Of a stretch of DNA of 64,000 nucleotides, positions 7,627 to 27,581 are shown one piece after another. How positions within the stretch are numbered: position 1 is the first letter of the stretch; each line of letters opens with the position of its first letter. The position numbers and the translations under genes were made by a program. Origin of the DNA: Arthrobacter sp. B1I2 (GTDB taxonomy: Bacteria > Actinomycetota > Actinomycetes > Actinomycetales > Micrococcaceae); the NCBI RefSeq assembly GCF_030816485.1, contig NZ_JAUSYC010000002.1, positions 62,001 to 126,000 on the forward strand. The letters are read 5' to 3'. Under the pieces are notes generated by a model. The model worked only from the letters and a program-made list of their open reading frames with translations. It had not been told where the DNA came from and did no database searches.

Positions 7627-9267
7627 ATGATTCCGAACATCACCCGCGGCTCCCGCATGTCCGGGCTGCTGCTTTACCTGGCCTCCACGGACACTGATAA
7701 GACGAAGAACGCCCACACCGATCCCCACCTGGTTGCCGGGGACGCGGCCATCATGGCGTGGTACGACGACGGCGTCCTGGACAGGGACGACGCGGTGGCG
7801 ATCGCGAAGCATCTGGACCAGCCCCGCGAGGCCTTCGGCGTCGAGGTGCTGCAGAAGGATTTCCGCTGGGACCCGGTCAAAAAGGAACGGGTACCGAACG
7901 GCCACAAGCAGGCCGACGTGTGGCACTGCTCCCTGAGCCTCCGTGCCGAAGAAGGCGCCCTGACCGACCAGCAGTGGGGCGACATCGCGCACGACTTCGT
8001 CGACGCCATGGGCTTCACCGAGGCAAGCGGAAAAGCCCAGTGCCGGTGGGTGGCGATCAACCACGGAACGAGTGAGAACGGGAACCACCACATCCACATC
8101 GCGGTGTCCCTGGTCCGCGAAGACGGCACCAAAGCCTCCACCCATGGCGACTACAAACGCGCACAAAAGACCTGCCGCGAACTGGAAACCAAGTACGGCC
8201 TCGAAGAGCTCTCCAGCGTGCACGCCACCCGCGGCTATGACCGGGCCGAAAAGGCCACCGCGGTCCGGGACGACCGCGAAATGCACCGTGCTTCCCTGGC
8301 CCGCAAGGTACGTGCCAGCGCCAGCGCCTCAGCTACCGAAGCTGAGTTCGTCCGCCGCGCCCGGGACACCGGACTGCTGGTCCGCCCGCGGTATGCCAAG
8401 AACACCACAGACGTCATAGTCGGGTACTCCGTCGCGGAGCGTCCCAAGCCGGGGGAGCGCCCTATCTGGTTCGGGGGTGGCACGCTTGCTTCCGACTTGA
8501 AGCTTGGTGCGTTGCGTGAGGAATGGATGGACTCACCGCACCTGGCTACCGAGGCCGCGGCGGAATGGAACGCCGCCGCTCGCAACAAGCGCAAGGTCTC
8601 CAAGGCCGGTCCCGAGCACGCCACCCCTTCAGCGGATGTATGGGTGGAATACACCCGAAACGCCGCAGCACTGGCTGACCAGCTGCGCACCATTCCGCGT
8701 GACGATCACGCGACCTGGGCGAAAGCAGCGCGTGAGGTATCCGGTGCCTTTGCAGCATGGTCGTACCGGCTGGAACATACGCCCGGTCCTCTGGCCGCCA
8801 CAGCTGCCGAACTGTCCCGCACGGCCCAGCTTCGGGCTCCCCGGCAGCACGGCAAGCCCGTCGCGCTGCCATCAATTGCAGGCACGGCCATGTTGTTCAT
8901 GGCAGCGTCGAGTAAGAACAAGACGGCCGCGCAAACAGCGCTCATGCTGCAGCTGATCAACACCGCGTTCGCGGTGTACGAGATGCACGCCCAGTCCGGC
9001 CGAGCCCGGGAAGCCCAACGCATCCGATCGGTGGTCGAAAACCAGCTGGCCCCGTTCACTGCGACGATGCCCAAGGCCGTTCCCGTAGGAGCCATACAAC
9101 AGCCGGCCGAAGAGACTGCGGTGCGACCGAGGGCAGTCGATATTGCACGCCGCGGCATGGCACCGATCTGCCCGGGTTCGGTGGTTCCCACGACACCTAC
9201 ACCGGCGACACCAGCAAAGACCTATCAGCCCAGCCGCCGTGACTCCGGGCCGGGACTCGACCGATAA
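7627..9267 (+). CDS. mobA: relaxase/mobilization nuclease
   Basis: This 546-residue protein carries the relaxase domain (PF03432 type) in its first 200 residues. An early Tyr in 'GLLLYLAS' (Tyr17) is the likely nicking residue. A conserved 'WHCSLSL' (His100) and the metal-binding 'NHHIHIAV' (around 153-160) follow. The enzyme nicks oriT and pilots the strand during conjugative mobilization. The C-terminal half is Ala-rich and helical with no helicase or primase motif. It is preceded by mobC (4-base gap) and followed after 30 bases by a coiled-coil gene. No type IV secretion genes are in the window, so the element looks mobilizable rather than self-transmissible here. Confidence 0.88.
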   Translation: MIPNITRGSRMSGLLLYLASTDTDKTKNAHTDPHLVAGDAAIMAWYDDGVLDRDDAVAIAKHLDQPREAFGVEVLQKDFRWDPVKKERVPNGHKQADVWHCSLSLRAEEGALTDQQWGDIAHDFVDAMGFTEASGKAQCRWVAINHGTSENGNHHIHIAVSLVREDGTKASTHGDYKRAQKTCRELETKYGLEELSSVHATRGYDRAEKATAVRDDREMHRASLARKVRASASASATEAEFVRRARDTGLLVRPRYAKNTTDVIVGYSVAERPKPGERPIWFGGGTLASDLKLGALREEWMDSPHLATEAAAEWNAAARNKRKVSKAGPEHATPSADVWVEYTRNAAALADQLRTIPRDDHATWAKAAREVSGAFAAWSYRLEHTPGPLAATAAELSRTAQLRAPRQHGKPVALPSIAGTAMLFMAASSKNKTAAQTALMLQLINTAFAVYEMHAQSGRAREAQRIRSVVENQLAPFTATMPKAVPVGAIQQPAEETAVRPRAVDIARRGMAPICPGSVVPTTPTPATPAKTYQPSRRDSGPGLDR

Positions 9268-10601: not shown

Positions 10602-11633
10602 ATGACCCAGCTCGAACCGGACTTTCCTTCCGGCTATGCGGACCTGCTTGATGAACTGAAGATGCGCGTGCGTTCAGCCCGTACGGCCACCCTGCGCATA
10701 GTCAATACCCAGCTCGTGGAGCTTTACTGGACTATTGGTCAGTACGTCCGCAAAACACAGGAAGCTCAGGGCTGGGGGAGTGCGGTCATCAGGCAATTGT
10801 CTGAGGACCTTCGGAGAGAGTTCCCGGATATGAAGGGATTGTCCGCCCGAAACATCCAGTACATGACCACTTTCGCGAAGGCTTGGGACGAGGGGCCAAT
10901 TGCGCAACAGGCTGTTGCGCAATTGCCCTGGGGCCATATCACCGTTCTTCTCGATAAACAGCTCGACCCTGCCACCAGGAATTGGTACGCATCGTCTGCT
11001 GTTGAGTTCGGATGGTCGCGCAACGTACTTCTGAACATGATCATGAACAAGACACTGGAACGCTCCGGCGCCGCCCCATCCAACTTTGCGCAACAGCTTG
11101 TTGCGCAGGATTCCGAACTCGCCCAGCAAATCGCCAAAGACCCATACAGCTTCGAATTTCTCGGCCTTTCCGGGGAAGTAGCAGAGCGGGATCTCGAACA
11201 GAAGCTGATGGACCGGATTACCGAGACCCTCCGCGAACTCGGGCCCGGATTCGCCTTCGTGGGCCGCCAGGTGCACTTCGACGTTGGCGGTGAGGACTTT
11301 TACATCGACCTGCTCTTTTTCCACGTTGAGCAACTCCGCTACATCGTCGTTGAACTTAAGACCGGGAAATTCAAGCCCGAGTACGCTGGCAAGCTCAACT
11401 TCTACATCGCTCTCGTAGATGACCGCCTACGGCGAGAAGCCCATGCTGAAACCGTAGGCATACTGATCTGCGGGAGCAAAAATGACCACATAGTCCGCTA
11501 CAGCCTTGGCCGAACCACCTCGCCCATGGCCGTTGCCTCCTACACTTACGACGCACTTCCGCCCGACGTAAGGCAAGAGCTGCCCGATGCCGAATCAATC
11601 ACCGCAGCCTTGGACTGGACTGAACCAGCCTGA
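10602..11633 (+). CDS. DUF1016/YhcG-type PD-(D/E)XK nuclease-fold protein
   Basis: The 343-residue protein matches the YhcG (DUF1016) architecture. The N-terminal domain has 'LRIVNTQLVELYWTIGQYV' and 'AVAQLPWGHITVLLDK'. The C-terminal PD-(D/E)XK nuclease fold has Asp236 in 'FYIDLLFFH' and the E-x-K pair Glu251/Lys253 in 'VVELKTGKF'. It is cytoplasmic. The family is widespread on mobile elements and in restriction-modification neighbourhoods; its exact role is unsettled, with possible DNA cleavage or recombination. Length and motifs look complete. It sits at the end of the mobilization region, 75 bases after the coiled-coil gene, and contains a remarkable inverted repeat at 10897-10925. Confidence 0.85.
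   Translation: MTQLEPDFPSGYADLLDELKMRVRSARTATLRIVNTQLVELYWTIGQYVRKTQEAQGWGSAVIRQLSEDLRREFPDMKGLSARNIQYMTTFAKAWDEGPIAQQAVAQLPWGHITVLLDKQLDPATRNWYASSAVEFGWSRNVLLNMIMNKTLERSGAAPSNFAQQLVAQDSELAQQIAKDPYSFEFLGLSGEVAERDLEQKLMDRITETLRELGPGFAFVGRQVHFDVGGEDFYIDLLFFHVEQLRYIVVELKTGKFKPEYAGKLNFYIALVDDRLRREAHAETVGILICGSKNDHIVRYSLGRTTSPMAVASYTYDALPPDVRQELPDAESITAALDWTEPA
10897..10925. repeat. perfect 14-bp inverted repeat inside the DUF1016 gene
   Basis: CAATTGCGCAACAG-G-CTGTTGCGCAATTG has 14-bp perfect arms around one base. A related shorter repeat (TGCGCAACA / TGTTGCGCA, 3-base spacer) occurs near 11087-11107 in the same gene. Both encode a Gln-Gln-x-Val-Ala-Gln motif, so protein constraint may explain part of the symmetry. 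Confidence 0.6.
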
Positions 11634-11706: not shown

Positions 11707-12312
11707 TCACATCTGCCATACGTCGCGATTGGATGATGCGATGGCGACCGCACCGGCGCCCAATGCGCTGATGACATCCTGCTTGTCACATACCAGACCT
11801 CCGGCGATGAGCGGCAGGTCGGTGTCCTCGCGCACCCATGAAATGACGCGGGGCATGCAGCCAGGCAGTATCTCGATGGCGTCTGCGCCAGAAATGGCGA
11901 CTTGCTTCGGCACATTGTTATAGCTAAATGAATCTACGAGGAAGAGCCGATGTATGGCGAGGAGCCCTACCGATTTCGCGTGCTTGATCATCGTGGATTT
12001 CGAGCTGAGCACGCCATCGGCCTCCGTGTGCTGCGTCAAGAAATCGATGACGACAGGCTTGGTCGAGAACCCGTCGACCAAGTCCACATCTACGAACACG
12101 ATCCGCCCATCATCCTTCAAAGTTTTTACGATGTCCGTGATGGTCAGTACTGAGCCGAAAAGTACGAACACCACAGGGCAGTGCGTCCGCATCACTGCCC
12201 GCAACCCGTCCTCGTCTTTGATGCTCGCGATTACCGGATGCAGCAGCAGAATTTTCTCTATGGGGTGGGCTTTGTTGTCCAGCCCACCTTTGCCCGCGCG
12301 CGTAGTGGTCAC
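11707..12312 (-). CDS. glpP: GlpP-family RNA antiterminator
   Basis: This 201-residue protein has the GlpP pattern (PF04309, a TIM-barrel-like fold). Early comes 'HPVIASIKDEDGLRAVMRTHCPVVFVLFGSVLTI', then 'VFVDVDLVDGFS', 'ADGVLSSKSTMIKHAK' and 'ADAIEILPGCMPRVISWV', with 'LPLIAGGLVCDKQDVISALGAGAVAIASS' near the end. GlpP proteins bind mRNA leaders and prevent early termination, classically in response to glycerol-3-phosphate. The start is GTG 12312 with AGAGG upstream. The gene is divergent from an operon that begins with a terminator-containing leader (12550-12610), its probable target. GlpP is mainly known from Firmicutes and is unusual here. Confidence 0.85.
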   Translation of the reverse strand: MTTTRAGKGGLDNKAHPIEKILLLHPVIASIKDEDGLRAVMRTHCPVVFVLFGSVLTITDIVKTLKDDGRIVFVDVDLVDGFSTKPVVIDFLTQHTEADGVLSSKSTMIKHAKSVGLLAIHRLFLVDSFSYNNVPKQVAISGADAIEILPGCMPRVISWVREDTDLPLIAGGLVCDKQDVISALGAGAVAIASSNRDVWQM

Positions 12313-12461
12313 CGATGGCCTCTTTCCGAGTTATTGAGTGATTGTAGCGTGGGCAAACCAAAGGCAGGACCCGCGGGAGAACGCACGGGCCGGATCAGTG
12401 AAGGGTTCCTCCCGGGGGCGGTCCCAAACGTCCCCGCTGAGCAGCAACAAGAAGTTTAGCT

Positions 12462-12510
12462 ATCGGTTCAGTACCGATCGCTAGACGAGCCTTGTGACGC
12501 GTGCTACAGT
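12462..12510 (+). promoter_or_regulatory. palindromic operator and putative promoter of the GlpP-controlled operon
   Basis: A palindrome ATCGGT-TCAGT-ACCGAT (12462-12478) lies just ahead of a possible -35 TAGACG (12482-12487). After 17 bases follows a possible -10 TACAGT (12505-12510). This would start transcription about 35-40 bases ahead of the leader hairpins. The palindrome suggests an additional DNA-binding regulator not encoded next door. Confidence 0.45.
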
Positions 12511-12549
12511 AACGACAAACTTCATACACATTTCGCGATCATGCGGAAT

Positions 12550-12610
12550 GGTTGCTAGAGACTAGAGAACAGCAACCTCCTTTTCCTTGGGAGGTTGCTG
12601 TTCTTTTTTT
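12550..12610 (+). promoter_or_regulatory. leader terminator/antiterminator switch, probable GlpP target
   Basis: A textbook intrinsic terminator lies in the 5' leader. Its stem is GAACAGCAACCTCC (12567-12580) paired with GGAGGTTGCTGTTC (12590-12603), 14 perfect pairs with a 9-base loop, followed by seven T's. Upstream GGTTGCT (12550-12556) is complementary to AGCAACC (12571-12577) inside the left arm, so an alternative hairpin would break the terminator. The FAD-oxidase gene starts 62 bases after the T tract. Placement next to glpP makes it a likely antitermination switch; that link is inference. Confidence 0.8.
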
Positions 12611-12671
12611 GTCTCATCTCCCATTTGAGGTCGTCTCTGTCCGATCTCCCTATGAAAAGGAACCCGACTCC

Positions 12672-14135
12672 TTGTCTCCCACCCTTACTGACCAGATCAC
12701 ACGCGAAGAGATCGTCGCTGCCTACACTGAGATGCTCGGCTCTGACCGTGTCATTACTGATGAACAGGTACTGAAAGAGAATAGCGTCGACCGCTACTAC
12801 AAGGTCGAGAACATTTTCGGCGTCTACTCGCTCCCCCTGCCGGCCGCGGTCCTTAAGCCGGCGAGCACTGAGGACGTGGCGAAGATCCTGTCGTTCGCGA
12901 ATGAGCACCTGATTAACGTCGTTCCGAAGACCGGCGGTAGCGCAACCGAGGGCGGCCTGGAGACCGTCATTGAGAACTCGATCGTGGTCGACGGCTCCAC
13001 GATGGACCGGATCATCGATATCAACACTGAAGACATGCTCGCGACAGTGCAATGCGGGGTCGGCCTGGAGCAGCTCGAAAACGAACTCCGGGAGATGGGA
13101 TATACCACCGGGCACTCGCCGCAGTCCAAGCCGCTGGCCCAATTCGGTGGACTCGTCGCGACCCGATCAATCGGGCAGTTCTCGACCCTTTACGGGGGCA
13201 TCGAAGATATGGTCGTGGGTGTCGAAACGGTGTTTCCCAACGGGGAGATTTGCCGTATCAAGAACGTCCCCCGCCGCGCCGCCGGACCGGACATCCGCCA
13301 CCTCGTTATCGGGAATGAAGGGGCGCTGAATTACATCACCGAAGTGACCGTCAAGATTTTCCGGTACTACCCCGAGAACAACAAGTTCTACGGATACCTG
13401 CTCAACGACATCAAGACCGGCCTCCAGATCCTCCGAGAGGTTGTTACCCAGGGGTACCGCCCGTCGGTCGCGCGTCTGTATGACAAGGAAGATGGCCTGT
13501 ACCACTTCAAGCACTTCTCCGACGGCCGGTGCGTGCTGATTTTTGTGGCAGAAGGCCCTGAACGCATCGCCCAGGCGACCGGCACAGCGATCGAAGAGAT
13601 CGTCGCCTCGTTCGAGGGCGCTGAACGGGTCGATGGAGCCCTGATCGAGGACTGGTTCAACCATCTTAACTGGGACGTATCCAAGCTCGAGGAAGAGCGC
13701 ATCGAGATCCGGGAAACGCTCGTCAACGGGTTCACGACCGAGATCTCAGGCAACTGGAGCGTCATCGGCGACATCTACGAAAACGCGCTCACGCGCATTC
13801 GCGCGGAGATCCCCGCGCAGTTCACGATGCTGGGCGGGCACTCCAGCCACAGCTACCTCAACGGCACGAATATGTACTTTGTGTACTACTACAAGGTCGA
13901 CGTTGACCCCACCGAAGAGCGGACAACGTACCACGACCCGATCCAGAACATCATTGTCGAGGAGACGCTGAAGCTCGGCGGCTCGATGTGTCACCACCAC
14001 GGCGTCGGCAAGCACCGCACCCACTTCCTCGCGGAGGAGTACGGTTCATCGCTGTACATGCTCGAGACGCTCAAGTCGGCGTTCGACCCCAACGGAATCA
14101 TGAACCGCGGGACAATTTTCCCACTTCAGAAGTAG
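12672..14135 (+). CDS. FAD-binding oxidase, AgpS/GlcD-like
   Basis: The frame gives 487 residues from TTG 12672, which has AAAAGGA 9 bases upstream. The in-frame region before it is the leader terminator and is unlikely to be translated. The N-terminal half is an FAD_binding_4 (PCMH-type) domain: 'NVVPKTGGSATEGGLE', 'MLATVQCGVGLEQLE' and 'TTGHSPQSKPLAQFGGLVATRS'. The C-terminal half ends with 'GSMCHHHGVGKHR', the HHHGVGK signature of alkyl-dihydroxyacetone-phosphate-synthase-like and D-hydroxyacid oxidases. It probably oxidises a polyol, hydroxyacid or glycerol-ether-type substrate. It is first in the operon oxidase-SDR-FGGY kinase-MFS. Substrate unknown. Confidence 0.85.
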   Translation: MSPTLTDQITREEIVAAYTEMLGSDRVITDEQVLKENSVDRYYKVENIFGVYSLPLPAAVLKPASTEDVAKILSFANEHLINVVPKTGGSATEGGLETVIENSIVVDGSTMDRIIDINTEDMLATVQCGVGLEQLENELREMGYTTGHSPQSKPLAQFGGLVATRSIGQFSTLYGGIEDMVVGVETVFPNGEICRIKNVPRRAAGPDIRHLVIGNEGALNYITEVTVKIFRYYPENNKFYGYLLNDIKTGLQILREVVTQGYRPSVARLYDKEDGLYHFKHFSDGRCVLIFVAEGPERIAQATGTAIEEIVASFEGAERVDGALIEDWFNHLNWDVSKLEEERIEIRETLVNGFTTEISGNWSVIGDIYENALTRIRAEIPAQFTMLGGHSSHSYLNGTNMYFVYYYKVDVDPTEERTTYHDPIQNIIVEETLKLGGSMCHHHGVGKHRTHFLAEEYGSSLYMLETLKSAFDPNGIMNRGTIFPLQK

Positions 14136-14227
14136 CGAGAACCCTACGGGTATAGTGCCGGGACCCAGGTGGCCCCGGCCACACTCCCTCAAAACAGCTC
14201 CCTATTCCAACTAATTGACAGGCACTC

Positions 14228-15016
14228 ATGAACGACATGAACATCGCCGATTTTGGCGCGGACTTTTTTTCCCTAAAAGGGAAAAACGCGATCGTCACCG
14301 GCGGCAATACAGGGCTCGGTCAGGCCTTCACCCTGGCGCTGGCGAAAATGGGTGCGAACGTCCTCGCGGCCAGCATTATGCCCGATGACGGCACCACCGC
14401 CACACTCGTGGAAGATGCAGGGTCCCGTTACTCCTACCTTCGCTCCGATATCACTGCCGAGGGAAACCCGAAGCGCGTGGTAGATGCGTGCATCGATGAT
14501 TTCGGCAGCGTCGACATACTTATTAATTGCGCGGGCCGGGGCATCAACGAGCCCGACGTGTTGAAATTTACCCGCGCGCAGTGGGATCCGATGGTGGCCC
14601 TTAACCTCACCGCAGCCTTTGAGATGTCACACGCAGTAGCGCAGCATATGGTGCCCCAGCGCAGCGGCAAAATCATCAATATCTGCTCGGTTTTCTCGTT
14701 CCTGGGCGGCCAGTGGTCGCCGGCCTACGCGGCGACCAAACACGGCATTGCCGGGCTGACGAAGGCTTATTGCGACGAGCTCGCTCCGTTCGGCATCCAA
14801 GTCAACGGAATCGCACCCGGATACTACGCCACCGCACTGACCACTGAGACCCGGGCAAACGTCCAAGCCAACCAGCGCGTAATGGATCACGTCCCGGCGG
14901 GACGCTGGGGGCAAACGCAGGACCTCATGGGTGCAACGGCGTTCTTGGCCAGCCGCGCCTCGGACTACGTCAACGGTCATATTTTGAGCGTCGACGGCGG
15001 ATACCTGGTGCGCTGA
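14228..15016 (+). CDS. short-chain dehydrogenase/reductase, polyol/sugar-acid type
   Basis: This 262-residue classical SDR shows the cofactor motif TGGNTGLG (about 24-31), the NCAG motif of the central sheet (97-100), catalytic Ser in 'ICSVFSFLGG', Tyr-x3-Lys in 'YAATKHG', and the C-terminal 'ILSVDGGYLVR'. It resembles KduD and gluconate- or deoxygluconate-dehydrogenase-like enzymes. It is cytoplasmic and NAD(P)-dependent. The gene lies 92 bases after the oxidase gene and 24 bases before the kinase, so it likely interconverts an alcohol and ketone in the same pathway. The exact substrate cannot be read from the sequence. Confidence 0.85.
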   Translation: MNDMNIADFGADFFSLKGKNAIVTGGNTGLGQAFTLALAKMGANVLAASIMPDDGTTATLVEDAGSRYSYLRSDITAEGNPKRVVDACIDDFGSVDILINCAGRGINEPDVLKFTRAQWDPMVALNLTAAFEMSHAVAQHMVPQRSGKIINICSVFSFLGGQWSPAYAATKHGIAGLTKAYCDELAPFGIQVNGIAPGYYATALTTETRANVQANQRVMDHVPAGRWGQTQDLMGATAFLASRASDYVNGHILSVDGGYLVR

Positions 15017-15040
15017 GCGCCGGAGGATAGCGACTAACAG

Positions 15041-16477
15041 ATGACAAAGAAGTACATCGTGGGCATAGACGGCGGCTCGCAGAGCTCGAAGGTGCTCATT
15101 TTCGACACAGAGGGCCGGATCGTAAGCGAGGCCGCTGAAGCTTTGGCGCCGATGCACACCCCCAAGCCCGGCATAGCCGAACACCCTGACGATGACCTGT
15201 ATGACACTATCGTGGCTGCGGCGCGCCGAGCACTCACCGCCTTCACCGGCGACGTAGCTGACATCGTCGGGGTGGGGCTCTGCACGATTCGGTGCTGCCG
15301 CGCCTTGGTGCGCGCAGACGGCACCCTCGCCGAGCCGGTGCAGAGTTGGATGGACCATCGTCTGTCACGCCCGTACGAGCACACGAACGACGAAGTCGCC
15401 TATGTGACAACCACGTCGGGGTATCTGATGGGACGGCTGACAGGAAACCGCACGGACACCGCGGCTAACTACATCGGCCCGTGGCCCATGGACGTGAACA
15501 CATGGAACTGGTTCGCCGACCAGGAAACCTTCGATTCATTCAACGTGCCACACAACATGCTCTACAAGCTGCAGATGCCGGGGGAGATCGGCGGATACCT
15601 TACAGATGCGTTCGCTGCCGAGACCGGCATTCCCGCTGGCCTTCCTGTCGTGCACACCGCAAACGACAAGGCAACCGAGGCGCTCGGCGCGGGTCTGCGC
15701 GACGGGAGCACCGCGCTCATCTCGCTCGGCACGTACATCGCCGGCATGGTCGTCGGCGAAGACTTCGTGGCGGAGCCACAGAGCTATTTCACAAACTTCG
15801 CATCGGAGCCGAAGCGCTACATTTACGAGAGTGCAGGCATCCGCCGCGGAATGTGGACCGTGACGTGGCTGCGAAACCTGGTCGGCACCGAGATCGCGCA
15901 GGCAGCGTCAGATGCAGGGGTGTCTCCTGAACAACATCTGAATGCCCTTGCCGCTCAAGTTCCGGCAGGGTGCGACGGCCTCATGTGCGTCCTCGACTGG
16001 CTGGCCTCGCCAACGCAGCCGCACAAAAAGGGAATGTTCATCGGCTTCGATGAACGCCACGGATACGCGCATATGTACCGTGCGATTCTGGAGGGTATTT
16101 CGTTCCGGATGAAACAGAATGTAGCGGACATGGAAGCCGAGCTCGGCATCCAGGTCGAAAAGCTCGTCATCTCCGGTGGTGGTTCAAACAGCGATGTGGG
16201 GATGCAAATCTTCGCCGATATGTTCAATCTGCCCGTCGTGCGCAATGAAGTACGCAATGCGGCCGGGTTGGGGGCCGCGATTTGTGTGGCGGTCGCATGC
16301 GGCATCTACCGCGACATCGATGAGGCCACATCACGAATGGTGCACGAAGCCGACGGGTTCAGGCCCGACGCGGCCCGCGCGCAGCTATACCGAAAACTCG
16401 GCGCGGTCTATTCGGATATCTCTGCGGAGACCGATGCGATCCTCGAACGCACTCACAACATTCTGTCCGAACAATAG
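15041..16477 (+). CDS. FGGY-family carbohydrate kinase
   Basis: The 478-residue protein has the FGGY/actin-like kinase layout: N-terminal phosphate-1 loop 'IVGIDGGSQSSKVLIFDTEG', substrate-region 'QSWMDHRLSRPYEH', ATP-domain 'ALISLGTYIAG', 'RAILEGISFRMKQN' and adenosine loop 'LVISGGGSNSDVGMQIFADMFNLPV'. Members phosphorylate xylulose, glycerol, erythritol and related polyols or ketoses. The residues CTIRCCRAL early in the protein replace the usual GQxHG-like segment, so the substrate is probably atypical. A GGAGG lies about 14 bases before ATG. If GlpP senses a polyol phosphate, this kinase would make the inducer. Confidence 0.88.
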   Translation: MTKKYIVGIDGGSQSSKVLIFDTEGRIVSEAAEALAPMHTPKPGIAEHPDDDLYDTIVAAARRALTAFTGDVADIVGVGLCTIRCCRALVRADGTLAEPVQSWMDHRLSRPYEHTNDEVAYVTTTSGYLMGRLTGNRTDTAANYIGPWPMDVNTWNWFADQETFDSFNVPHNMLYKLQMPGEIGGYLTDAFAAETGIPAGLPVVHTANDKATEALGAGLRDGSTALISLGTYIAGMVVGEDFVAEPQSYFTNFASEPKRYIYESAGIRRGMWTVTWLRNLVGTEIAQAASDAGVSPEQHLNALAAQVPAGCDGLMCVLDWLASPTQPHKKGMFIGFDERHGYAHMYRAILEGISFRMKQNVADMEAELGIQVEKLVISGGGSNSDVGMQIFADMFNLPVVRNEVRNAAGLGAAICVAVACGIYRDIDEATSRMVHEADGFRPDAARAQLYRKLGAVYSDISAETDAILERTHNILSEQ

Positions 16478-16489
16478 GAGTATGACGAC

Positions 16490-17815
16490 ATGCCCAAGCT
16501 CGCCCAATCAAGGAAGATTTTCGAGCTAGTCCTTTTGATCCTCGCCGCGGGATCAATCTATCCGTTGGTCTATTTGCGCCAGAACTTCGAAAAGACCATC
16601 CTCATCTCGTTCGACATGAACCAGGCGGAGCTGGCCAACCTGTATTCGATGCTCGGCATTATTTTCGTCATCGGGTATCTGCCCAGTGGATGGTTGGCCG
16701 ATCGGTTCCCGGTCAAGTTCCTCATCATCTTCTCGTTGCTGCTAACGGCTGGCACCGGCCTGTGGTACGCGCAAGTCCCTGACAAGTCCTCTTTGGTGTA
16801 CATCTATCTCATCTGGGGTTTCGCGACGGTCTTCACGTTCTGGAGCGCGATTCTGAAGACAGTGAACTTGCTCGCAGATGCGAACGAAGAAGGCCGCTAT
16901 TTTGGTGCACTGGACGGCGGCCGCGGCCTGGTGGAGGCGATCCTGGCAAGCGCCGCGGTCATCGTGTTCTCGCTGGCTGCCGGCCCGGATGGGGCCGACG
17001 GGGCGGCAACGCGTGCTGGCTTCCATGCGGTCGTCTACATGTACTGCATTGCGATTATCGTGATCGCCGTCGGCTTGTTCTTCCTCATGCCGGGTGGCCG
17101 CGATAAGGAGATAAAGGCGGACGCGCAGAGCAAGGTAAACGTCAAGTCGACGTTTACCGCGATTGCGGGGATTCTGAAGATTCGCGAGGTGTGGGTGATG
17201 ATCGTCATCCTCTTCTGCGGGTACACGTTGTTCTGGGGGCACTACTACTTCTCGGGCTTCTTGAACGTTAACCATGGAGTATCACAAGTGGGCGCAGGCG
17301 TCGTAACAGTGATCGTTCTCTGGATGCGGCCGATCGGTGGATTTGGCGGTGGATTCCTCGCAGACAAGTTCGGCCGATCCAGAGTGCTAACGCTTGCCAT
17401 GGCGCTCACTGCGGCACTAATGATTGCCCTCGCAGTGCTGCCGGGCGGGTCACCGATCGGCCTAATCTACGTGCTGATTGTGGCGGCCGGTCTGGTGATG
17501 TACGTGGTACGAGGCGTGTACTGGTCCATTCTCGATGAGTGCCGTGTGCCGGTTGCGGTGACAGGTATCGCGATCGGGATCATCTCCTTCTTCGGCTACT
17601 TGCCCGACATTGTCCTGCCGCAAATCAGCAGCGCGATCTACACGAACTTCGGCGAGAATGTAGGGGGAGCAAACAGCGTCTACTTTGTCGTGACGGCGGT
17701 GATCGGCCTGATCGGTGCCGGGGCCGCAATGTACTTCACACTGCTGTTGAAGCGCCGCGCCGCCGCCGAGGCACTCGAGGCAAAAGCCGCACCTAACTCG
17801 GTGGTGGAAGCCTAA
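16490..17815 (+). CDS. MFS transporter, probable polyol/sugar uptake
   Basis: The 441-residue product is a 12-helix major facilitator. The loop 2-3 motif appears as 'GYLPSGWLADRFPVKF' (about residues 63-78), and its echo in the second half as 'GGFGGGFLADKFGRSRV'. The C-terminus is a short Ala-rich cytoplasmic tail. It starts 12 bases after the kinase stop, with AGGAG upstream, and closes the GlpP-controlled operon ahead of a strong hairpin. It is expected to import the substrate of the pathway by proton symport. Substrate not assignable from sequence. Confidence 0.85.
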   Translation: MPKLAQSRKIFELVLLILAAGSIYPLVYLRQNFEKTILISFDMNQAELANLYSMLGIIFVIGYLPSGWLADRFPVKFLIIFSLLLTAGTGLWYAQVPDKSSLVYIYLIWGFATVFTFWSAILKTVNLLADANEEGRYFGALDGGRGLVEAILASAAVIVFSLAAGPDGADGAATRAGFHAVVYMYCIAIIVIAVGLFFLMPGGRDKEIKADAQSKVNVKSTFTAIAGILKIREVWVMIVILFCGYTLFWGHYYFSGFLNVNHGVSQVGAGVVTVIVLWMRPIGGFGGGFLADKFGRSRVLTLAMALTAALMIALAVLPGGSPIGLIYVLIVAAGLVMYVVRGVYWSILDECRVPVAVTGIAIGIISFFGYLPDIVLPQISSAIYTNFGENVGGANSVYFVVTAVIGLIGAGAAMYFTLLLKRRAAAEALEAKAAPNSVVEA

Positions 17816-17912
17816 AGCAGGACGGCACGGAAGCGCCCCGTCCAAAGGTGGATATTACGGGTCGCTACGACCCACTGGTGAATGAGTTAAGTAGCCAAGA
17901 GTAGATCATGCG

Positions 17913-17947
17913 AAACGCTCGGCTGGAGTCGTCCAGCCGAGCGTTTT
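17913..17947 (+). terminator. intrinsic terminator after the MFS gene
   Basis: A perfect 15-bp stem AAACGCTCGGCTGGA (17913-17927) pairs with 17932-17946 around the GTCG tetraloop and runs into TTTT. It ends the oxidase-to-MFS operon. The A-rich left side could make it work from the other direction too. Confidence 0.85.
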
Positions 17948-18627: not shown

Positions 18628-20154
18628 TCAGGGCTTTCGCTGTGGTGTACCGGCTGCACCGCCCGATGCTGCGGCTGTCGGGACTGGTTGTTCCGTGGTT
18701 TGGACAAGTTGGGCGAGGAAAGGGTTCCGCGCGGCTTGGTCCGGGTAGGTGGCAGTGTCGGCAACGCAGGTGGGGCACCAGTGACCGGCTGTCAGGACCA
18801 GCCGGGGGCTGGCATCGAAGACGTGGCCGAATGCGCACCTCCACTGGATGGTCCTGGTGAATTGTCCCGGGGCGATGTCATGGGTCAGCAGTTGGCCGCC
18901 TCTGAATTCGGCGGCGGATCTGTAGTCGGTTTCGGTCCATTCGGATGGTCTTTTGGCTTCGTCGTACCCGTGATCCAGCAGGACTGGTGTCCGGTCAGGC
19001 ATCGGGGGCTGGAACGTGGACCAGTCTCCGATGGACTGCCAGTTGGCGAGGGATCCGAAGTGGGCGTTGATTTCCGTGGGGTTGCCCGATCTGATGGCCT
19101 GCATGGTGCCGCGTGGCTGTCGGGTTAGGGGTTTCATGACCAGGTGTTTGATGAGCCAGCCGGGGACTTTCCCGGCGGACTTTACGGCAGGGGGCAGGGT
19201 GGCGACGGCCCGTGACAGGGCTTCGGGGAAGGTGTCCTGGCGGAAGGGTACGAGCGCTTGCAGGCGGTCGCTGTCGGTGTACCAGTGGCCGTGGAAGTTT
19301 CCGGTGGCGAACCAGTTGCGGTCGTACCAGCGCCGGATGTCCTGTACTCCCAGCGCGTCGGCGATGGCGGTCTGAAGTTCCCAGTTGGTGAGCCGCCACG
19401 GGTCTCCGCCGCCAATGTTGTAGATCCCGCCCCAGAATTCCTCGGGGACCGCGGGTTCGCAGATGTTGGCCAGCAGCCGGGCGGAGTCTTCTACCGATAC
19501 CCATTCGATAACCCCGTCCAGGGTGGAGTGCGTCATGATGGGGTCGCGGATGGTGAGCATGTCCGGGTGGAAGATCCCGGTTTGCCGGAGCCAGGCCCAG
19601 CGGGGGAGCCCGGAGTCGACCAGTTCCCGCTCTGCGATGACTTTGGTTTGCCCGTATTCATCGAAGGTTGAGACGCGGATCGGGTCACCAATGCGGCCCC
19701 AGTGGTGGGGAACAGCGCGGTTCCCGGTTTCGGCCACCGATCCGACTCCGACCACTTTGATCCGGGACGGATCGGGCTGGTTTTTGACGGCCCGGATGAT
19801 GTTGCGCATGCTGCCGATGTTGACCTTGCGGGCCAGTTCGGGGTGCTGGTCAGCCAGGGGGGAGACCACGGCTCCGACGTGCAGGATGATGTCGGCATCA
19901 GCGACGCAACGCTCTACGGCTGCCGGGTCGGTGAGGTCTCCCCAGACCACGTCCAGGTTTTCCATGTCGCTGAATTGCTCCAGCGCGGCCCGGTCACGTT
20001 TAGTGGGCAGCACGAGCGCAGTCACACTGAACCGGTCCCCGCGTTCCCTGAATTCCCGGAGCGTGGCGCGTCCCCAGTTGCCCGTTGCACCGGTGAGGAA
20101 AACACGGGTCCGGGCAGCCGTCCTGGTGGCGGCTCCGTTTGCGGCGGTGGTCAT
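18628..20154 (-). CDS. NAD-dependent epimerase/dehydratase-fold protein with C-terminal zinc ribbon
   Basis: The 508-residue protein starts with an extended-SDR Rossmann motif TGATGNWG (21-28), has 'VVWGDLTDPAAV' at the acidic loop and the catalytic Tyr-x3-Lys in 'DEYGQTKVIAE', and extends to about residue 360. An unusual C-terminal extension follows, ending in a Cys-rich module 'QWRCAFGHVFDASPRLVL' and 'HWCPTC', a probable zinc ribbon. It starts on the last base of the GH3 stop (TGATG overlap), so it is the fourth gene of the operon. It may oxidise or epimerise a sugar or aglycone released by the glycosidases. The zinc module's role is unclear. Confidence 0.75.
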   Translation of the reverse strand: MTTAANGAATRTAARTRVFLTGATGNWGRATLREFRERGDRFSVTALVLPTKRDRAALEQFSDMENLDVVWGDLTDPAAVERCVADADIILHVGAVVSPLADQHPELARKVNIGSMRNIIRAVKNQPDPSRIKVVGVGSVAETGNRAVPHHWGRIGDPIRVSTFDEYGQTKVIAERELVDSGLPRWAWLRQTGIFHPDMLTIRDPIMTHSTLDGVIEWVSVEDSARLLANICEPAVPEEFWGGIYNIGGGDPWRLTNWELQTAIADALGVQDIRRWYDRNWFATGNFHGHWYTDSDRLQALVPFRQDTFPEALSRAVATLPPAVKSAGKVPGWLIKHLVMKPLTRQPRGTMQAIRSGNPTEINAHFGSLANWQSIGDWSTFQPPMPDRTPVLLDHGYDEAKRPSEWTETDYRSAAEFRGGQLLTHDIAPGQFTRTIQWRCAFGHVFDASPRLVLTAGHWCPTCVADTATYPDQAARNPFLAQLVQTTEQPVPTAAASGGAAGTPQRKP

Positions 20155-22397
20155 CAGGCTGCGGGTTCCTTCCGGCTGAGCTCCATCAATGACTGCAGGG
20201 CTTCCGGTGGGAAGGCTCCGTTGGTGAAGGCCAGGAACTGCTGCATGGGCATGGACTCAACCATTTTGAGTTGGGCTGGGTTCTCTTGGGCCTGTTGGGC
20301 TTGCTCTTCGGTCATAGACGCGCTGAGGCCGGCCATGAGTGCCGGGCCGACGGTGGGGTGGGCGAACCAGTCCCCGACGGTGGAGTCTAGGGTCAGTTCT
20401 CGGATAATGCTGTCCCCTGCAAGGGTGATGTCCTGTTCGGCCACAACGGTGGAGGCGTCGGAGCAGAGCTGTACGGTGTACGTTCCTGCCGGTACCACCC
20501 AGCGGCCCAGTTCGATGTCCCAGTAGGCGAAAGCCCGGCGGTCCAGGGTCAGTGCGACCTGCTTGCTTTCACCTGGTGCAAGGCTGATTTTGGTGAAGGC
20601 ACGCAGTTCCCGGAGGGGCCGACGGACCGGGCCGGCCGTTGTGGCGACGTAGACCTGGACGACGTGCTTGCCGGGCCGGTCCCCGGTGTTGGTGACGGTC
20701 ACGTGGACGGTGACACTGTCGTCGGAAAGCGTCTCGACGTCCAAGCCGGAGGTGTCGAAGGTCGTGTAGGAGAGTCCGTGCCCGAACGGGTAGCGGACTT
20801 TTACGCCGGCGGTGGTGTAGTAGCGGTAGCCGACGAAGACTCCTTCGCTGTAGCGGACGTGTCCCTGTTCTCCGGGGAAGTTCAGCCAGCTTGGGTTGTC
20901 TTCCAGGCGCAGCGGGATGGTTTCGGCAAGCCGCCCGGAGGGGTTGACGATACCGAAGAGGACGTCGGCGAGTGCCCCGCCGCTGGCTTGCCCCAGCAGC
21001 CAGCCCTCAACGATGGCGTCGACGTCATCGTGCCATCCTTCGAGGGAGACGACGCCTCCGTTGGACAGCACGACCACAGTTTTCGGTGCTGCCGCGGCAA
21101 CGGCCCGGATCAGTTCGACCTGGTTGGCTGGCAGTTCAAGACCGGTCCGGTCGAAGCCCTCGGACTCTTCACGTTCGCTGAGCCCGGCGAAGATCACGGC
21201 GACGTCGGCAGTCCGGGCAAGGTCTACAGCTTCATCCTGCAGGATCGCGGCGTCCGGTTCTTCAAGGGAGAAACCGGGTGCGAAATCGATTGTCCCGTTG
21301 TGGTCCATTGCGAGGGCCGTGAGTTCATTTAGTGCCGAGTCAGTCCGGGTGGCGTTGATGTGGGAACTTCCGCCGCCCTGGAAGCGGGGGGACACGGCGA
21401 AGGGGCCGATGACGGCGATGCGTTGTCCTCCGCCCAGCGGCAGGACTGCCTGGTTTTTCAGCAGCACGATCGATTCTGCTGCGACTTCGCGGGCCAGGGT
21501 GTGGTGCTGGTCAACTGGCACCTTGTTCGTGGCTTCCCCGCCGGGAAGGTTGGTCAGTGCGAGGACGCGGCGTACGGCGTCGTCGACTTGGTCTTCGGTG
21601 AGCCGGCCGTCGCGGACGGCGTCGACGATCTGCTGGTCGGTGCCTCCGCCGCTGCCTGGCATTTCGAGGTCCATCCCGGCGGCGACGCCTGCGACGCGGT
21701 CACTGACCGCGCCCCAGTCGGACACGACGGCGCCGTCGAAGCCCCAGTCATCGCGCAGGACATCGGTCAGCAGCCACTTGTTGTGGGAGGCGTAGACGCC
21801 GTTGACCTTGTTGTAGGAGCACATAACGGTGGCGGGTCGGGCTTCGGTGACGATGCGTTCGAAGGCGGGGAAGTAGATTTCGCGCAGGGTGCGTTCATCC
21901 ACGTCTGCGCTGATACGCATCCGTTCCGTTTCCTGGTTGTTGGCTGCAAAATGCTTGAGGGAGGCACCGGGGCCGGTTTCCTGGAGGGCGGTGACGTGGG
22001 CGGATCCGAGCACGCCGGAGAGCAGGGGGTCCTCGGAGTAGTACTCGAAGTTCCGCCCGCACAGCGGGGACCGCTTGATGTTCACGCCCGGCCCCAGGAC
22101 GACGGACACGCCGAAAGCGAGGGCTTCACGGCCGACGGCGGCACCCACCTTGGCGGCCACGCCCGAATCCCAGCTCGAGCCCACTGCAACGGCGGGCGGA
22201 AAGCAGGTGGACGGCAGGCTGTCGTTGATGCCCAGGTGGTCGGACTCGGCGTCCTGCCGGCGGATCCCGTGGGGGCCGTCGGTCAGGACGATCGACGGTA
22301 TGCCGGCCTCATCGATGCTCTTGGTCGTCCAGAAGTCTTTTCCGGACAGCAGGGACGCCTTCTGTTTGAGAGTCAGCAAGGAAATGTCGGCGGTCAT
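20154..22397 (-). CDS. GH3 beta-glucosidase (arm 1)
   Basis: This 747-residue enzyme has the GH3 layout: a TIM-barrel with 'LTDGPHGIR' (39-47), 'KHFAANNQE' (148-156) and the nucleophile Asp227 in 'GAVVSDWG', then the alpha/beta sandwich, and a C-terminal fibronectin-III-like domain ('RYPFGHGLSYTTF' precedes it). There is no signal peptide, so it acts inside the cell on imported glycosides. It overlaps the upstream rhamnosidase gene by 4 bases and the downstream SDR by one. It probably removes the glucose left after rhamnose cleavage. It differs clearly from the second GH3 at 28.2 kb. Confidence 0.9.
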   Translation of the reverse strand: MTADISLLTLKQKASLLSGKDFWTTKSIDEAGIPSIVLTDGPHGIRRQDAESDHLGINDSLPSTCFPPAVAVGSSWDSGVAAKVGAAVGREALAFGVSVVLGPGVNIKRSPLCGRNFEYYSEDPLLSGVLGSAHVTALQETGPGASLKHFAANNQETERMRISADVDERTLREIYFPAFERIVTEARPATVMCSYNKVNGVYASHNKWLLTDVLRDDWGFDGAVVSDWGAVSDRVAGVAAGMDLEMPGSGGGTDQQIVDAVRDGRLTEDQVDDAVRRVLALTNLPGGEATNKVPVDQHHTLAREVAAESIVLLKNQAVLPLGGGQRIAVIGPFAVSPRFQGGGSSHINATRTDSALNELTALAMDHNGTIDFAPGFSLEEPDAAILQDEAVDLARTADVAVIFAGLSEREESEGFDRTGLELPANQVELIRAVAAAAPKTVVVLSNGGVVSLEGWHDDVDAIVEGWLLGQASGGALADVLFGIVNPSGRLAETIPLRLEDNPSWLNFPGEQGHVRYSEGVFVGYRYYTTAGVKVRYPFGHGLSYTTFDTSGLDVETLSDDSVTVHVTVTNTGDRPGKHVVQVYVATTAGPVRRPLRELRAFTKISLAPGESKQVALTLDRRAFAYWDIELGRWVVPAGTYTVQLCSDASTVVAEQDITLAGDSIIRELTLDSTVGDWFAHPTVGPALMAGLSASMTEEQAQQAQENPAQLKMVESMPMQQFLAFTNGAFPPEALQSLMELSRKEPAA

Positions 22398-24892
22398 ACG
22401 TGGGTTCCTTGGGAAGCGGAGGTGAGTGCGGAAGTGAGGTCGTTTTTGAGCTCGTCGGAGGCGCCGGGGACGTAGTCCAGCATCGTGCGGACGGACATGA
22501 CGGCCGCCTCAGGTGCGCGGCCGTCCAGGGGCACTCCCGGGAAGTGGCTGGCGAAGGCGTCGGTGAAAGCGCGCCAGGCCCGGGCGTTGCCGGCGATCTG
22601 GCCAAGGGTTGAATCCAGGGTGAAGACAGTATCGGCGGCTGCGTCTTCTCCCAGGTCGTAGGACCATTCGTGGGTGCCGCCGCTGATGTGGACTGTCTGG
22701 GAGTCAGGGTGCAGCGGGAGCGTGACCTCTGCGGTGGTTCCGGCCGGGATGGTGGCTTCGAGGGACACGGTTCGGTCCGTGATGGACCAGGAGATACGTA
22801 CTTCGCCGTGGACGGTGTCGTGGCGCAGCGTCGCGCGGGTCAGTCCGCCGCCGGGTTGGGGTGCGATGCGCATGTGCCGGTAGCCGGGCTCGAGCGCGCT
22901 GAGCCCGCCGATGGTGCGGTGCATCCAGTCCACGACTGCGCCGAGGGCGTAGTGGTTCAGGGAGGTCATTCCTGACGGGTTGATGGTCCCGTCGGGCCGG
23001 ATGGAGTCCCAGCGTTCCCAGATGGTCGTCGCTCCCATGGTGATGGGATACAGGAACGACGGGCAGCCGGTTTCGAGCAGGAGGAGGTAGGCCTCGTCGA
23101 GGTGGCCGGTCATGGAGAGCGCGTCGGTGACCAGGGGAGTGCCGGCGAACCCGGTGGAGATCCGGTAGCCGGATTTGGCCACGGTGGCGGCGAGGACTTT
23201 TCCTGCGACCTTCTGCTGTTCGGTGTCAAGGATTCCGAATGTGATCGCCAGGGCATATGCGGTGGCGGTTTGGTCGACCAAGCGTCCGTTCCTGGTGACG
23301 TATTCGTTGAGGAACGCCTCCCTGACACGTGCCGCGAGGGCCGTAAATTCTTCGGCGTCCGCTGCCCGGCCTAGGATCCTGGCGGTATCGGCCATTTCGC
23401 GGGTGGTGCGGCACAGGTAGGCCGAGGCGACGAGGTGCCTGTCGGTTTTCCCGCCTGCCGGGTTGTCCATGGGGGCGTCCGGGTCCAGCCAGTCACCATA
23501 TTGGAAGCCGCTGCTCCACAATCCGTTCTCGTCCAGCAGGCCTGCGACCTGGCGGATGAAGGCTGTCATGGAGTCATAGGCGTTGGCGAGGATGGTCTCG
23601 TCACCGTATTCGCGGTAGAGGGCCCAGGGCAGGCTGACCGCGACATCGCTCCACAGTGCTGTGGGGGAGGACGGGGTGGACAGGACGTCGGGAACCACCC
23701 ACGGCACGAAGCCCTTTTCCGCCTGTTCCGCGGCGAGGTCCTCCAGCCAGGATCCCAGTACGGCGCGTACGTCGTAGAGGAACGCTGCTGTGGGGGCGAA
23801 GGCGTTCAGGTCACCGGTCCAGCCCAGGCGTTCGTCGCGCTGCGGGCAGTCCGTGGGAACGCCGACGAAGTTGTCCCGCATGGACCAGACCGCGTTGGCG
23901 TGCAGCTGGTTCAGCAGCGGGTTTGAGGTTTCCAGCCAGCCGGCGCGGCGCATGTCCGAGTGCACCACGATCGCCCGCAGCGAATCATTGTCGGGGGTGC
24001 CGGGCCAGCCGTCGATCTCGACGTAACGGAAGCCGTGGAAGGTGAACTTCGGCTCCCAGGTTTCGGGCTTCCCTCCGCGGAGCGTGTACCTGTCGGTCGC
24101 CTTTGCGGTGCGCAGGGTTTCGACATCGATCTCGCCGTGGGTCATCACTTCGGCGTGCCGGAGCGTGACCACGGTACCGGTCGCGCCCTGGACCGTCAGG
24201 CGCACCCAGCCGGAGATGATCTGTCCGAAGTCCACTACGGTCTTGCCGCTGGGGGTGGTGAGGATCTCCACCGGGGCGATTTCCTCGATCCGGCGGATCG
24301 GATCGGCCGTGGCTTCGAACAGCGCCTCAAGGGGCCAGTCAAAGACCTCAACTGGATTCCAGGTCGAGTCGTCGAACCCGGGCTGGTCCCAGCCGTCGGA
24401 TTCGAGCCGGGCGTCGAAGTCTTCCCCGTCGTAAAGACTGTTGGCCCGAACGCCCCCGGTGCCTGCCCGGAAGGAGCCGTCGCTCGTGACTGTTTCAGTC
24501 CGGTGGGCATACTCCAGGACCAATTCCAGGAAGAGCGCCGGGCGATCAGTGTAGTGGTGCCGCTTGTCCTCCCAGCCCAGCCGGCCCATAGCCCATCCCT
24601 GACCCACAATGGCGCCGAGGGCGTTCGCTCCCAGGGTGATCACTTCTGTGACGTCGTGGGTGCTGACGGCCAGGCGGTGCTTGTATGAGGTCCAGCCGGG
24701 AGCGAGGACTTCATCGCCCACTGCTGCCCCGTTCAGGTGGGGTTCGACAAGTCCCAGTGCGGTGATGTGCAGGGTGGCGCGTACAGGGAGTTCGGGAACG
24801 TCGAATTCGCGGCGGAAGTAGACGGCTGGGTCGTTCTCCTGGCCGTGGCAGGTGGTGGGGGTGATGAACTGGCCGGTCCAGTTGCGGGGCAT
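22394..24892 (-). CDS. GH78 alpha-L-rhamnosidase (arm 1)
   Basis: The 832-residue protein has the rhamnosidase order: an N-terminal carbohydrate-binding sandwich ('HITALGLVEPHLNGAAVGDEVLAPGWTSY'), a second sandwich ('VVDFGQIISGWVRL'), the (alpha/alpha)6 catalytic barrel with the acid motif 'DCPQRDERLGWTGD', and 'GATTIWERWDS' further on. It lacks a signal peptide, so it is cytoplasmic. GAGGAATCCGTT precedes ATG 24892. The gene follows the MFS gene by 30 bases and overlaps GH3. It hydrolyses terminal alpha-L-rhamnose, as in plant flavonoid or saponin glycosides. Confidence 0.9.
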   Translation of the reverse strand: MPRNWTGQFITPTTCHGQENDPAVYFRREFDVPELPVRATLHITALGLVEPHLNGAAVGDEVLAPGWTSYKHRLAVSTHDVTEVITLGANALGAIVGQGWAMGRLGWEDKRHHYTDRPALFLELVLEYAHRTETVTSDGSFRAGTGGVRANSLYDGEDFDARLESDGWDQPGFDDSTWNPVEVFDWPLEALFEATADPIRRIEEIAPVEILTTPSGKTVVDFGQIISGWVRLTVQGATGTVVTLRHAEVMTHGEIDVETLRTAKATDRYTLRGGKPETWEPKFTFHGFRYVEIDGWPGTPDNDSLRAIVVHSDMRRAGWLETSNPLLNQLHANAVWSMRDNFVGVPTDCPQRDERLGWTGDLNAFAPTAAFLYDVRAVLGSWLEDLAAEQAEKGFVPWVVPDVLSTPSSPTALWSDVAVSLPWALYREYGDETILANAYDSMTAFIRQVAGLLDENGLWSSGFQYGDWLDPDAPMDNPAGGKTDRHLVASAYLCRTTREMADTARILGRAADAEEFTALAARVREAFLNEYVTRNGRLVDQTATAYALAITFGILDTEQQKVAGKVLAATVAKSGYRISTGFAGTPLVTDALSMTGHLDEAYLLLLETGCPSFLYPITMGATTIWERWDSIRPDGTINPSGMTSLNHYALGAVVDWMHRTIGGLSALEPGYRHMRIAPQPGGGLTRATLRHDTVHGEVRISWSITDRTVSLEATIPAGTTAEVTLPLHPDSQTVHISGGTHEWSYDLGEDAAADTVFTLDSTLGQIAGNARAWRAFTDAFASHFPGVPLDGRAPEAAVMSVRTMLDYVPGASDELKNDLTSALTSASQGTHV

Positions 24893-24922
24893 AACGGATT
24901 CCTCAAATAAGACGTGGATGGT

Positions 24923-26275: not shown

Positions 26276-26316
26276 TATGTGACTCCGTTGTCGATGCGAA
26301 GAAGGTGATGCGTATC

Positions 26317-26332
26317 GCTAGCGCGGGCTAGC
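26317..26332. promoter_or_regulatory. LacI-type operator, arm 1
   Basis: GCTAGCGCGGGCTAGC is a near-perfect palindrome with the central CG expected of LacI-family sites. It sits 42 bases before the MFS start and 52 bases before lacI. Fourteen of its first 15 bases match the site at 27566. Confidence 0.7.
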
Positions 26333-26354
26333 TCGATCGATGGTACCCGAGCAA

Positions 26355-26370
26355 ACTAGCGCGCGCAAGG
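26355..26370. promoter_or_regulatory. second LacI-type half-operator, in the lacI leader
   Basis: ACTAGCGCGCGCAAGG matches the main operator at 12 of 16 positions, strongest in its left half. It ends 13 bases before the lacI start. This position would allow autorepression, possibly with looping to 26317. Confidence 0.45.
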
Positions 26371-26383
26371 TAGTATTGGCGAT

Positions 26384-27382: not shown

Positions 27383-27565
27383 CCGCGGGAGTCATCGACC
27401 GACAACCCGCTCACGGCGCACTGACATCTCTTCCGCCTGGCGCGTCCGGCACTCGCCCATCGCCTGCGGGATGCCATGAGACTGACATCATGGGCTATGT
27501 CCCCGGCCGAGAAAGCTTCATGCGTTCTGCCGCTGGTCGGCAGAACACACACTCTTTACGTCTTG

Positions 27566-27581
27566 GCTAGCGCGTGCTAGT
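27566..27581. promoter_or_regulatory. LacI-type operator, arm 2
   Basis: GCTAGCGCGTGCTAGT is nearly identical to the arm-1 operator. It is the only such site before the second glycosidase operon and lies 573 bases upstream of its first gene. This places both arms under one regulator. Confidence 0.7.

Follow-up and report, generated by a model that had tools for sequence, protein, structure and literature searches.

A candidate GlpP-dependent antitermination leader of ygc-type operons, examined in Arthrobacter sp. B1I2

The locus and its leader

The 64,000-nucleotide (nt) stretch of Arthrobacter sp. B1I2 DNA analyzed here (contig NZ_JAUSYC010000002.1, positions 62,001 to 126,000; called the window, with positions counted from its first letter) carries a gene for a GlpP-family protein that is divergent from a four-gene operon. 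Judging from sequence comparison, the segment in front of the operon (approximately 12517 to 12671) is probably a leader that acts as a protein-dependent (GlpP-family) antitermination switch for all four genes (estimated probability, about 0.86). The leader contains a terminator and a competing hairpin, both helices are conserved and covary among related loci, the element co-occurs with GlpP, and it is positioned before the genes of a pathway. The features of the locus are as follows.

11707-12312, minus strand: gene for a putative antiterminator protein of the GlpP family, YgcP clade (Pfam PF04309 match and tree placement)
12502-12510, plus strand: predicted promoter-like extended -10 sequence TGCTACAGT, upstream of the terminator, with a start expected near 12517
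12529-12550, plus strand: P1 hairpin next to the antiterminator; either hairpin can use base 12550
12550-12556, plus strand: antiterminator 5' arm GGTTGCT (pairing with 12571-12577, covariation)
12557-12570, plus strand: antiterminator loop AGAGACTAGAGAAC with repeated AGAG, the predicted GlpP contact
12564-12606, plus strand: intrinsic terminator hairpin (folding, covariation of the helix)
12571-12577, plus strand: antiterminator 3' arm AGCAACC, common to the terminator 5' arm (pairing, folding, covariation)
12604-12610, plus strand: terminator T run of seven T's
12672-14135, plus strand: gene for a YgcU-like FAD oxidase (FAD_binding_4 and FAD-oxidase_C domains; HHHGVGKHR motif like that of alkyldihydroxyacetonephosphate synthase [AGPS]), predicted start codon
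14228-15016, plus strand: gene for a YgcW-like short-chain dehydrogenase (SDR)
15041-16477, plus strand: gene for a YgcE-like FGGY kinase
16490-17815, plus strand: gene for a major facilitator superfamily (MFS) transporter

The product of the minus-strand gene matched Pfam family G3P_antiterm (PF04309) at 198.3 bits against a cutoff of 27; this was the sole Pfam family matched, and there was no NCBIfam match. The four plus-strand genes are separated by gaps of 92, 24, and 12 nt. For the oxidase, a start at TTG 12672 (behind AAAGGA) is more likely than the mechanical open reading frame (ORF) start at 12552, which lies inside the leader. The window contains GlpP, a YgcU-type oxidase, an SDR, and an FGGY kinase, all four of the proteins by which a ygc cluster was recognized; neither glpF, glpK, and glpD (the canonical linkage of glycerol GlpP proteins) nor the electron transfer flavoprotein (ETF) subunit genes ygcQR are among its four operon genes. 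A sequence-only reading of this DNA had assigned GlpP and the four operon genes in the same way, and the Pfam and gene matches agree.

That reading had also described a 14-bp leader terminator with seven T's (12567 to 12610) and a competing hairpin formed by GGTTGCT and AGCAACC. Both are present: the stem has 15 bp (12566-12580 with 12590-12604) and can be extended by pairing of 12564-12565 with 12605-12606, and the competing arms lie at 12550-12556 and 12571-12577. Folding of the leader, proposed as a check, gave -53.5 kcal/mol for 130 nt, far more stable than shuffled sequences (-28.9 kcal/mol; standard deviation, 3.4; z, -7.2). Folded alone, the terminator reached -30 kcal/mol, which 0 of 200 shuffles equaled, and the GGTTGCT/AGCAACC hairpin reached -7.4 kcal/mol, which 1 of 200 equaled. 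The leader up to 12577 formed two adjacent hairpins, P1 (12529-12536 with 12543-12550) and the antiterminator, at -15.5 kcal/mol, a value matched by 2 of 200 shuffles. Because the terminator is by far the stronger structure when alone, termination should be the default, and the antiterminator must be held by something.

Spread and covariation of the leader

In the genome collection, 149 stretches encoded a GlpP relative, and the best 80 were taken as the named GlpP loci. After a motif scan, 84 sequences (the window and L002 to L084, with the duplicate L001 left out) were scanned with a score for both helices that required a terminator with a T run and at least four of five paired arm positions. 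The scan returned 98 leader copies in 76 of the 84 sequences and none in L002, L003, L027, L038, L058, L068, L074, or L075. A covariance model (R1) in which the antiterminator pairs were not scored was searched over 82 sequences (the window and L004 to L084) and added eight full-length copies (one each in L027, L070, L076, L079, L082, and L084 and two in L041), for a total of 106; two further full-length matches were the reverse strand of known copies. The glpP-leader-oxidase arrangement, for which a genome search had been suggested, is widespread, with at least one leader copy in 75 of the 80 named loci by scan and model together.

The conserved pattern, RTTRCTAGAG-N-AGAGAAMAGYRAY-terminator-T run, is plainly alike in the 12 nearest loci (L004 to L015), and carriers of the leader span four phyla, including Arthrobacter, Cryobacterium, Streptomyces, Saccharopolyspora, Curtobacterium, Clostridia, Listeria, Enterococcus, spirochaete bins, and enterobacteria. 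Rfam gave no match in the window at the gathering score (the best subthreshold match was a plastid family, at 28.4 of 55.8 bits), and on nine loci of other groups it gave two matches, both away from the element. A literature search, with most subscription journals outside its reach, found no prior description. The leader is a new class, without an Rfam match, inside a known kind of control.

For all 98 scan copies, no more than 700 nt separate the end of the copy from the beginning of a matching pathway gene (YqcE-like MFS transporter, 44; FAD oxidase, 25; SDR, 23; BCCT transporter, 6), and the eight model-added copies likewise lie no more than 700 nt ahead of pathway genes; since the loci were picked around glpP, these counts describe placement within the locus rather than genome-wide.

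To assess covariation, we used alignment A2, which holds 54 rows (copies of at most 85 nt with near-duplicates dropped, 53 of 98 being kept, and the window row restored). Five measures were applied, bearing in mind that kinship among rows can beat shuffles without structure. For the antiterminator, cells changed on both sides numbered 40, compared to 13.2 in shuffled alignments (0 of 500 shuffles), and the covariation score was 0.363, compared to 0.220 (0 of 500), with slid partners reaching at most 0.164. Pair 5-30 is A-U in 36 rows and G-C in 18; pair 2-33 is G-C in 42, A-U in 10, and unpaired in 2; and pair 4-31 is U-A in 38, U-G in 14, and C-G in 2. The terminator helix had 85 double-changed cells, compared to 33.9 (0 of 500 shuffles), and the arm common to both helices must satisfy both. 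GAGA at 12565-12568 showed no variation in any of the 54 rows. The eight model-added copies provide a check on circularity, since no pairing demand selected them: 38 of their 40 inner-pair cells were paired (5, 5, 5, 5, 5, 5, 4, and 4 of 5), and in five of them (L070, L076, L079, L082, and L084) the 5' arm ends with C and the 3' arm starts with G, in place of the U and A of other copies.

Outside this core, the leaders differ by group. The P1 hairpin scored at least 8 in 33 of 40 actinobacterial copies (3 scored lower and 4 had no P1), and all 58 nonactinobacterial copies scored below 8, the highest being 7.0. All 13 Micrococcales leaders have TGYTANNNT 49 to 59 nt ahead of the element, and none of the 27 other actinobacterial leaders does; a generic promoter scan of the window leader did not pick up TGCTACAGT. 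By eye, L025, L030, L031, L035, L039, and L041 have a TTGACA/TATAAT-type promoter near the antiterminator, at a position such that the 5' end of the RNA should be almost at the antiterminator 5' arm.

Co-occurrence with GlpP and the proposed switch

A tree of 127 GlpP proteins, with long branches and a midpoint root, contained one clade of 82 (support, 100/98) that includes the window protein. This ygc clade comprises all 77 oxidase-linked rows, four rows without an oxidase in reach, and one glp-labeled row (L074); outside it are 29 of the 30 glp-labeled rows and 16 others. Its members carry H121 (74 of 82), W159 (81 of 82), C175 (81 of 82), and D176 (76 of 82), compared to Q at position 121 in 26 of 29 glycerol GlpPs and E at position 159 in 21 of 29.

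Presence of the element follows this clade in two genome samples. Over the whole window genome, the covariance model, which was built from an alignment holding the window's own copy, found the element once (73.2 bits; E value, 5e-14), and up to an E value of 10 there were two other matches, one on the reverse strand of the element itself (32.8 bits) and another that scored 22.5 bits. At an E value of at most 1e-4, the element was found in 1 of 99 genomes of the same genus and order, namely, the window genome, and in 0 of the 98 others; a GlpP match occurred in three of the 99 (the window's, one with glycerol genes, and one below the cutoff). In a genome of the same genus (G044), locus L227 has glpK- and glpD-like genes and, behind them, a gene for an AGPS-like oxidase with SHHHGVG, and the GlpP encoded at this locus is 23% identical to that of the window; the model found no element in this glycerol-type locus. 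The second sample consisted of 79 genomes from the family of Serratia genome G110, which we take to be Enterobacteriaceae in GTDB. A GlpP match was found in 15 of them, 14 over the cutoff. The 12 genomes whose best GlpP scored at least 203 bits each had exactly two elements on the same contig within 7 kb, and two genomes with only a weaker GlpP (172 and 151 bits) had none, as was also the case for the other 65; 29 of the 67 element-free genomes are small (at most 2.4 Mb), so the 38 of over 3 Mb are the telling ones. Among 61 Bacillus-class genomes, a score above 45 bits was reached only in G099, which carries a ygc locus, with a background of up to 41 bits. Of the many weak model matches in 14 named genomes, nine places were inspected (L118 to L126). 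L120 and L124 were ygc copies; L118, L119, L121, L122, L123, L125, and L126 were rejected, being by eye ordinary terminators without a 5' arm, with L118 scoring as high as 40.7 bits.

Glycerol GlpP loci provide a comparison. We surveyed 47 Firmicutes loci, from the Bacillus class and other groups; a glycerol gene was matched in 31, and in 28 of those 31 a box lay no more than 300 nt upstream of a glycerol gene: a short stem, a loop with two GAG repeats, and a 3' arm next to or inside the terminator arm. L152 had its box ahead of glpP instead, and L156 and L224 had no box among those listed. Because we wrote the box pattern after seeing examples, the relevant control is its enrichment, with 39 boxes in 23.7 kb compared to 12 in 763 kb elsewhere in the same loci (approximately 105-fold). 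The GlpP of Bacillus subtilis (glpFK and glpD) belongs to the same family, PF04309, and its Bacillus-class relatives, through whose leaders the comparison was made, share the antiterminator-in-terminator layout and the two-GAG loop with the window, whereas the stem letters, the regulon, and the clade differ. This comparison suggests a single target layout for the whole GlpP family. BglG, SacY, and LicT also act through a protein-stabilized antiterminator (RAT) hairpin overlapping a terminator; the hairpin logic is similar to that of the window, but the protein is unrelated (PF04309 only). Binding of the antiterminator by glycerol 3-phosphate-bound GlpP is reported, and the LicT antiterminator hairpin is mentioned (PMC7430163).

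We propose the following switch. Without inducer, the 15- to 17-bp terminator would win, and transcription would stop near 12610. Ligand-loaded GlpP (11707-12312, a relative of YgcP) would bind the loop with the repeated AGAG and hold the weaker GGTTGCT/AGCAACC hairpin, so that the terminator would lose its 5' arm and RNA polymerase could continue into the four genes of the operon. The most likely ligand, on the model of glycerol 3-phosphate and GlpP, is a pathway intermediate that the kinase phosphorylates. Binding by the protein, its contact with the loop, the nature of its ligand, and readthrough are predictions; on the comparative evidence we consider it very likely that the RNA switch is real and GlpP dependent.

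Several results weigh against this interpretation. In A2, pairs with a double change (4, compared to 3.4 shuffled; 218 of 500 shuffles) and further pair types (7, compared to 8.9; 500 of 500) were not above shuffles for the antiterminator, and a slide of +3 reached or passed both of these measures (4 and 9). In 20 of 54 rows the outermost antiterminator bases do not pair, and the 93.1% antiterminator pairing in A2 is partly by construction, since the scan demanded at least four of five paired positions. In eight copies, of which the scan had found seven, the 5' arm ends in C or G but the 3' arm still has A, and the pair is lost. In the E. coli and Geosporobacter copies, the antiterminator hairpin alone is no more stable than shuffles (111 and 114 of 200), so there it would depend on protein. 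Neither search found a copy in 5 of the 80 named loci; L038, L058, L074, and L075 are also without a pathway-gene match, yet L068 has a matched oxidase and kinase. Finally, in low-GC genomes the model background of up to 41 bits overlaps true Listeria copies (40.1 to 40.7 bits), and searches of more than 40 genomes use stricter filters that lose weak matches.

The least probable of the alternatives, in our judgment, is that the hairpin is an ordinary terminator of the neighboring gene and the upstream pairing a by-product of its palindrome. Stems of this kind are common among terminators, the hairpin also scores when read on the reverse strand, and in L004 to L008, L011, and L015 glpP lies upstream in the same direction. 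However, glpP is divergent in the window, L009, L010, and L012 to L014, and both E. coli copies lie between the divergent genes ygcW and yqcE, where no gene ends; for the divergent loci we therefore rejected a terminator of glpP. The sequence upstream of the terminator is, moreover, conserved and covaries with the arm, and the model found the element in none of the 67 and none of the 98 other genomes.

Two further alternatives accept a regulated leader. Control of the terminator by a ligand-binding riboswitch or a factor other than GlpP is very unlikely: GlpP binding to the leader is our prediction and most Actinobacteria add the P1 hairpin, but element presence tracks ygc-type GlpP in two genome samples, glycerol GlpP loci have the common layout, and the minimal element, a short hairpin with one loop, is presumably too simple for an aptamer. 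Of similarly low probability is a protein that binds the leader and acts chiefly on RNA stability or translation. GlpP has been reported also to stabilize glpD mRNA (PMC7430163). Against such a role, one and the same segment serves as antiterminator 3' arm and terminator 5' arm in the copies found, with a T run behind the terminator; as the scan demanded a terminator and a T run, this arm sharing is weak evidence. Antitermination by GlpP, which covariation, co-occurrence, and position before pathway genes all favor, is also what the sequence-only reading had proposed for this pair of gene and leader, with a polyol phosphate as the putative inducer.

The ygc cluster and its possible substrate

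The same reading had taken the operon to be novel and GlpP to be out of place in an actinobacterial setting. Neither view was supported. The same GlpP clade occurs in Arthrobacter, Cryobacterium, Streptomyces, and Saccharopolyspora, and the clade, the enzymes, and the leader recur together in actinobacteria, Firmicutes, spirochaete bins, and enterobacteria, including ygcP, ygcU, ygcW, ygcE, and yqcE of E. coli K-12; because the same genes and leader are so widespread, we rejected novelty. The operon belongs to a widespread, uncharacterized cluster. Among 82 sequences, GlpP was matched in 82, the oxidase in 77, the SDR in 75, and the kinase in 74; YgcR was matched in 24 and YgcQ in 22, so that ETF is not a constant feature.

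The E. coli K-12 cluster (ygcP-ygcQRS-ygcU-ygcW/yqcE-ygcE) shares with the window the GlpP clade, SDR, FGGY kinase, MFS transporter, and leader, and YgcU is 65% identical to the window oxidase in alignment A3. It differs in having ETF genes, divergent operons, and two leader copies, one ahead of yqcE and one ahead of the divergent ygcW, whereas in the window a single leader copy, with the P1 hairpin, precedes a single four-gene operon. To our knowledge, no function is known for the E. coli cluster, and none was named in the titles returned by a literature search (most subscription journals lay outside its reach). A CRP target list for E. coli includes ygcW<>yqcE (PMC3105977). If the proposed switch is correct, this orphan cluster gains a likely regulator together with its target RNA and a defined regulon, all testable in K-12.

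Transporters and the oxidase offer hints about the substrate. BCCT permeases with their own leader copies occur in clostridial-type loci (L025, L030, L031, and L041), and their inclusion in the regulon narrows the search, hinting at a compound like betaine, choline, or carnitine. Six BCCT proteins fell below every NCBIfam cutoff, with best matches to the glycine betaine type, and one that was compared with solved structures was nearest to DddT. Behind the SDR gene of Enterococcus locus L078 lie genes for a ProV-type ATPase, which scored above its subfamily cutoff, and for an OsmF-like binding protein, which did not reach its own. Among solved structures, AGPS is closest to the window oxidase (E value, 3e-49), and a profile of 22 oxidase family members aligns to AGPS at the HHHGVGK.R motif. 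R268, Y395, Y402, and H441 to H443 are invariant in all 22 members and face R419, Y571, Y578, and H615 to H617 of AGPS, which we take to be catalytic; a literature search on these AGPS residues found nothing.

The BCCT transporters with their own leader copies, together with the AGPS-like oxidase, hint, speculatively, at a glyceryl-ether or betaine-type substrate. The fuller proposal, which we consider unlikely and offer as a lead only, is a conserved, undescribed pathway for glycerol joined to another group, for instance glyceryl ethers like the trimethylhomoserine head group of betaine lipids, in which YgcP would sense a phosphorylated intermediate. If so, a compound taken up by BCCT- or ProV-type transport would be oxidized by the SDR, the FGGY kinase would phosphorylate it to an alkyl-dihydroxyacetone-phosphate-like intermediate, and the AGPS-like oxidase would then attack; what YgcP senses would be a substituted glycerol phosphate.

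In spirochaete ygc locus L028, a SurE-family gene (8480-9262) lies directly behind the kinase gene; L033 has an ORF of 260 amino acids in this place, of the same length as the SurE-family gene. In the window, a MobA/VirD2-like relaxase gene (7627-9267) lies near the GlpP operon, and a YhcG-type nuclease gene (DUF1016_N and YhcG_C; 10602-11633) lies between the relaxase region and glpP; the contig (C2) has 298,310 bp in a four-contig assembly. The nearby relaxase and the presence of the element in just 1 of 99 genomes of the same genus and order make a plasmid or other mobile origin likely. Farther along the window (20154-30502) is a plant-polymer type of cluster with two GH3 glycosidases, an alpha-L-rhamnosidase, and an MFS transporter.

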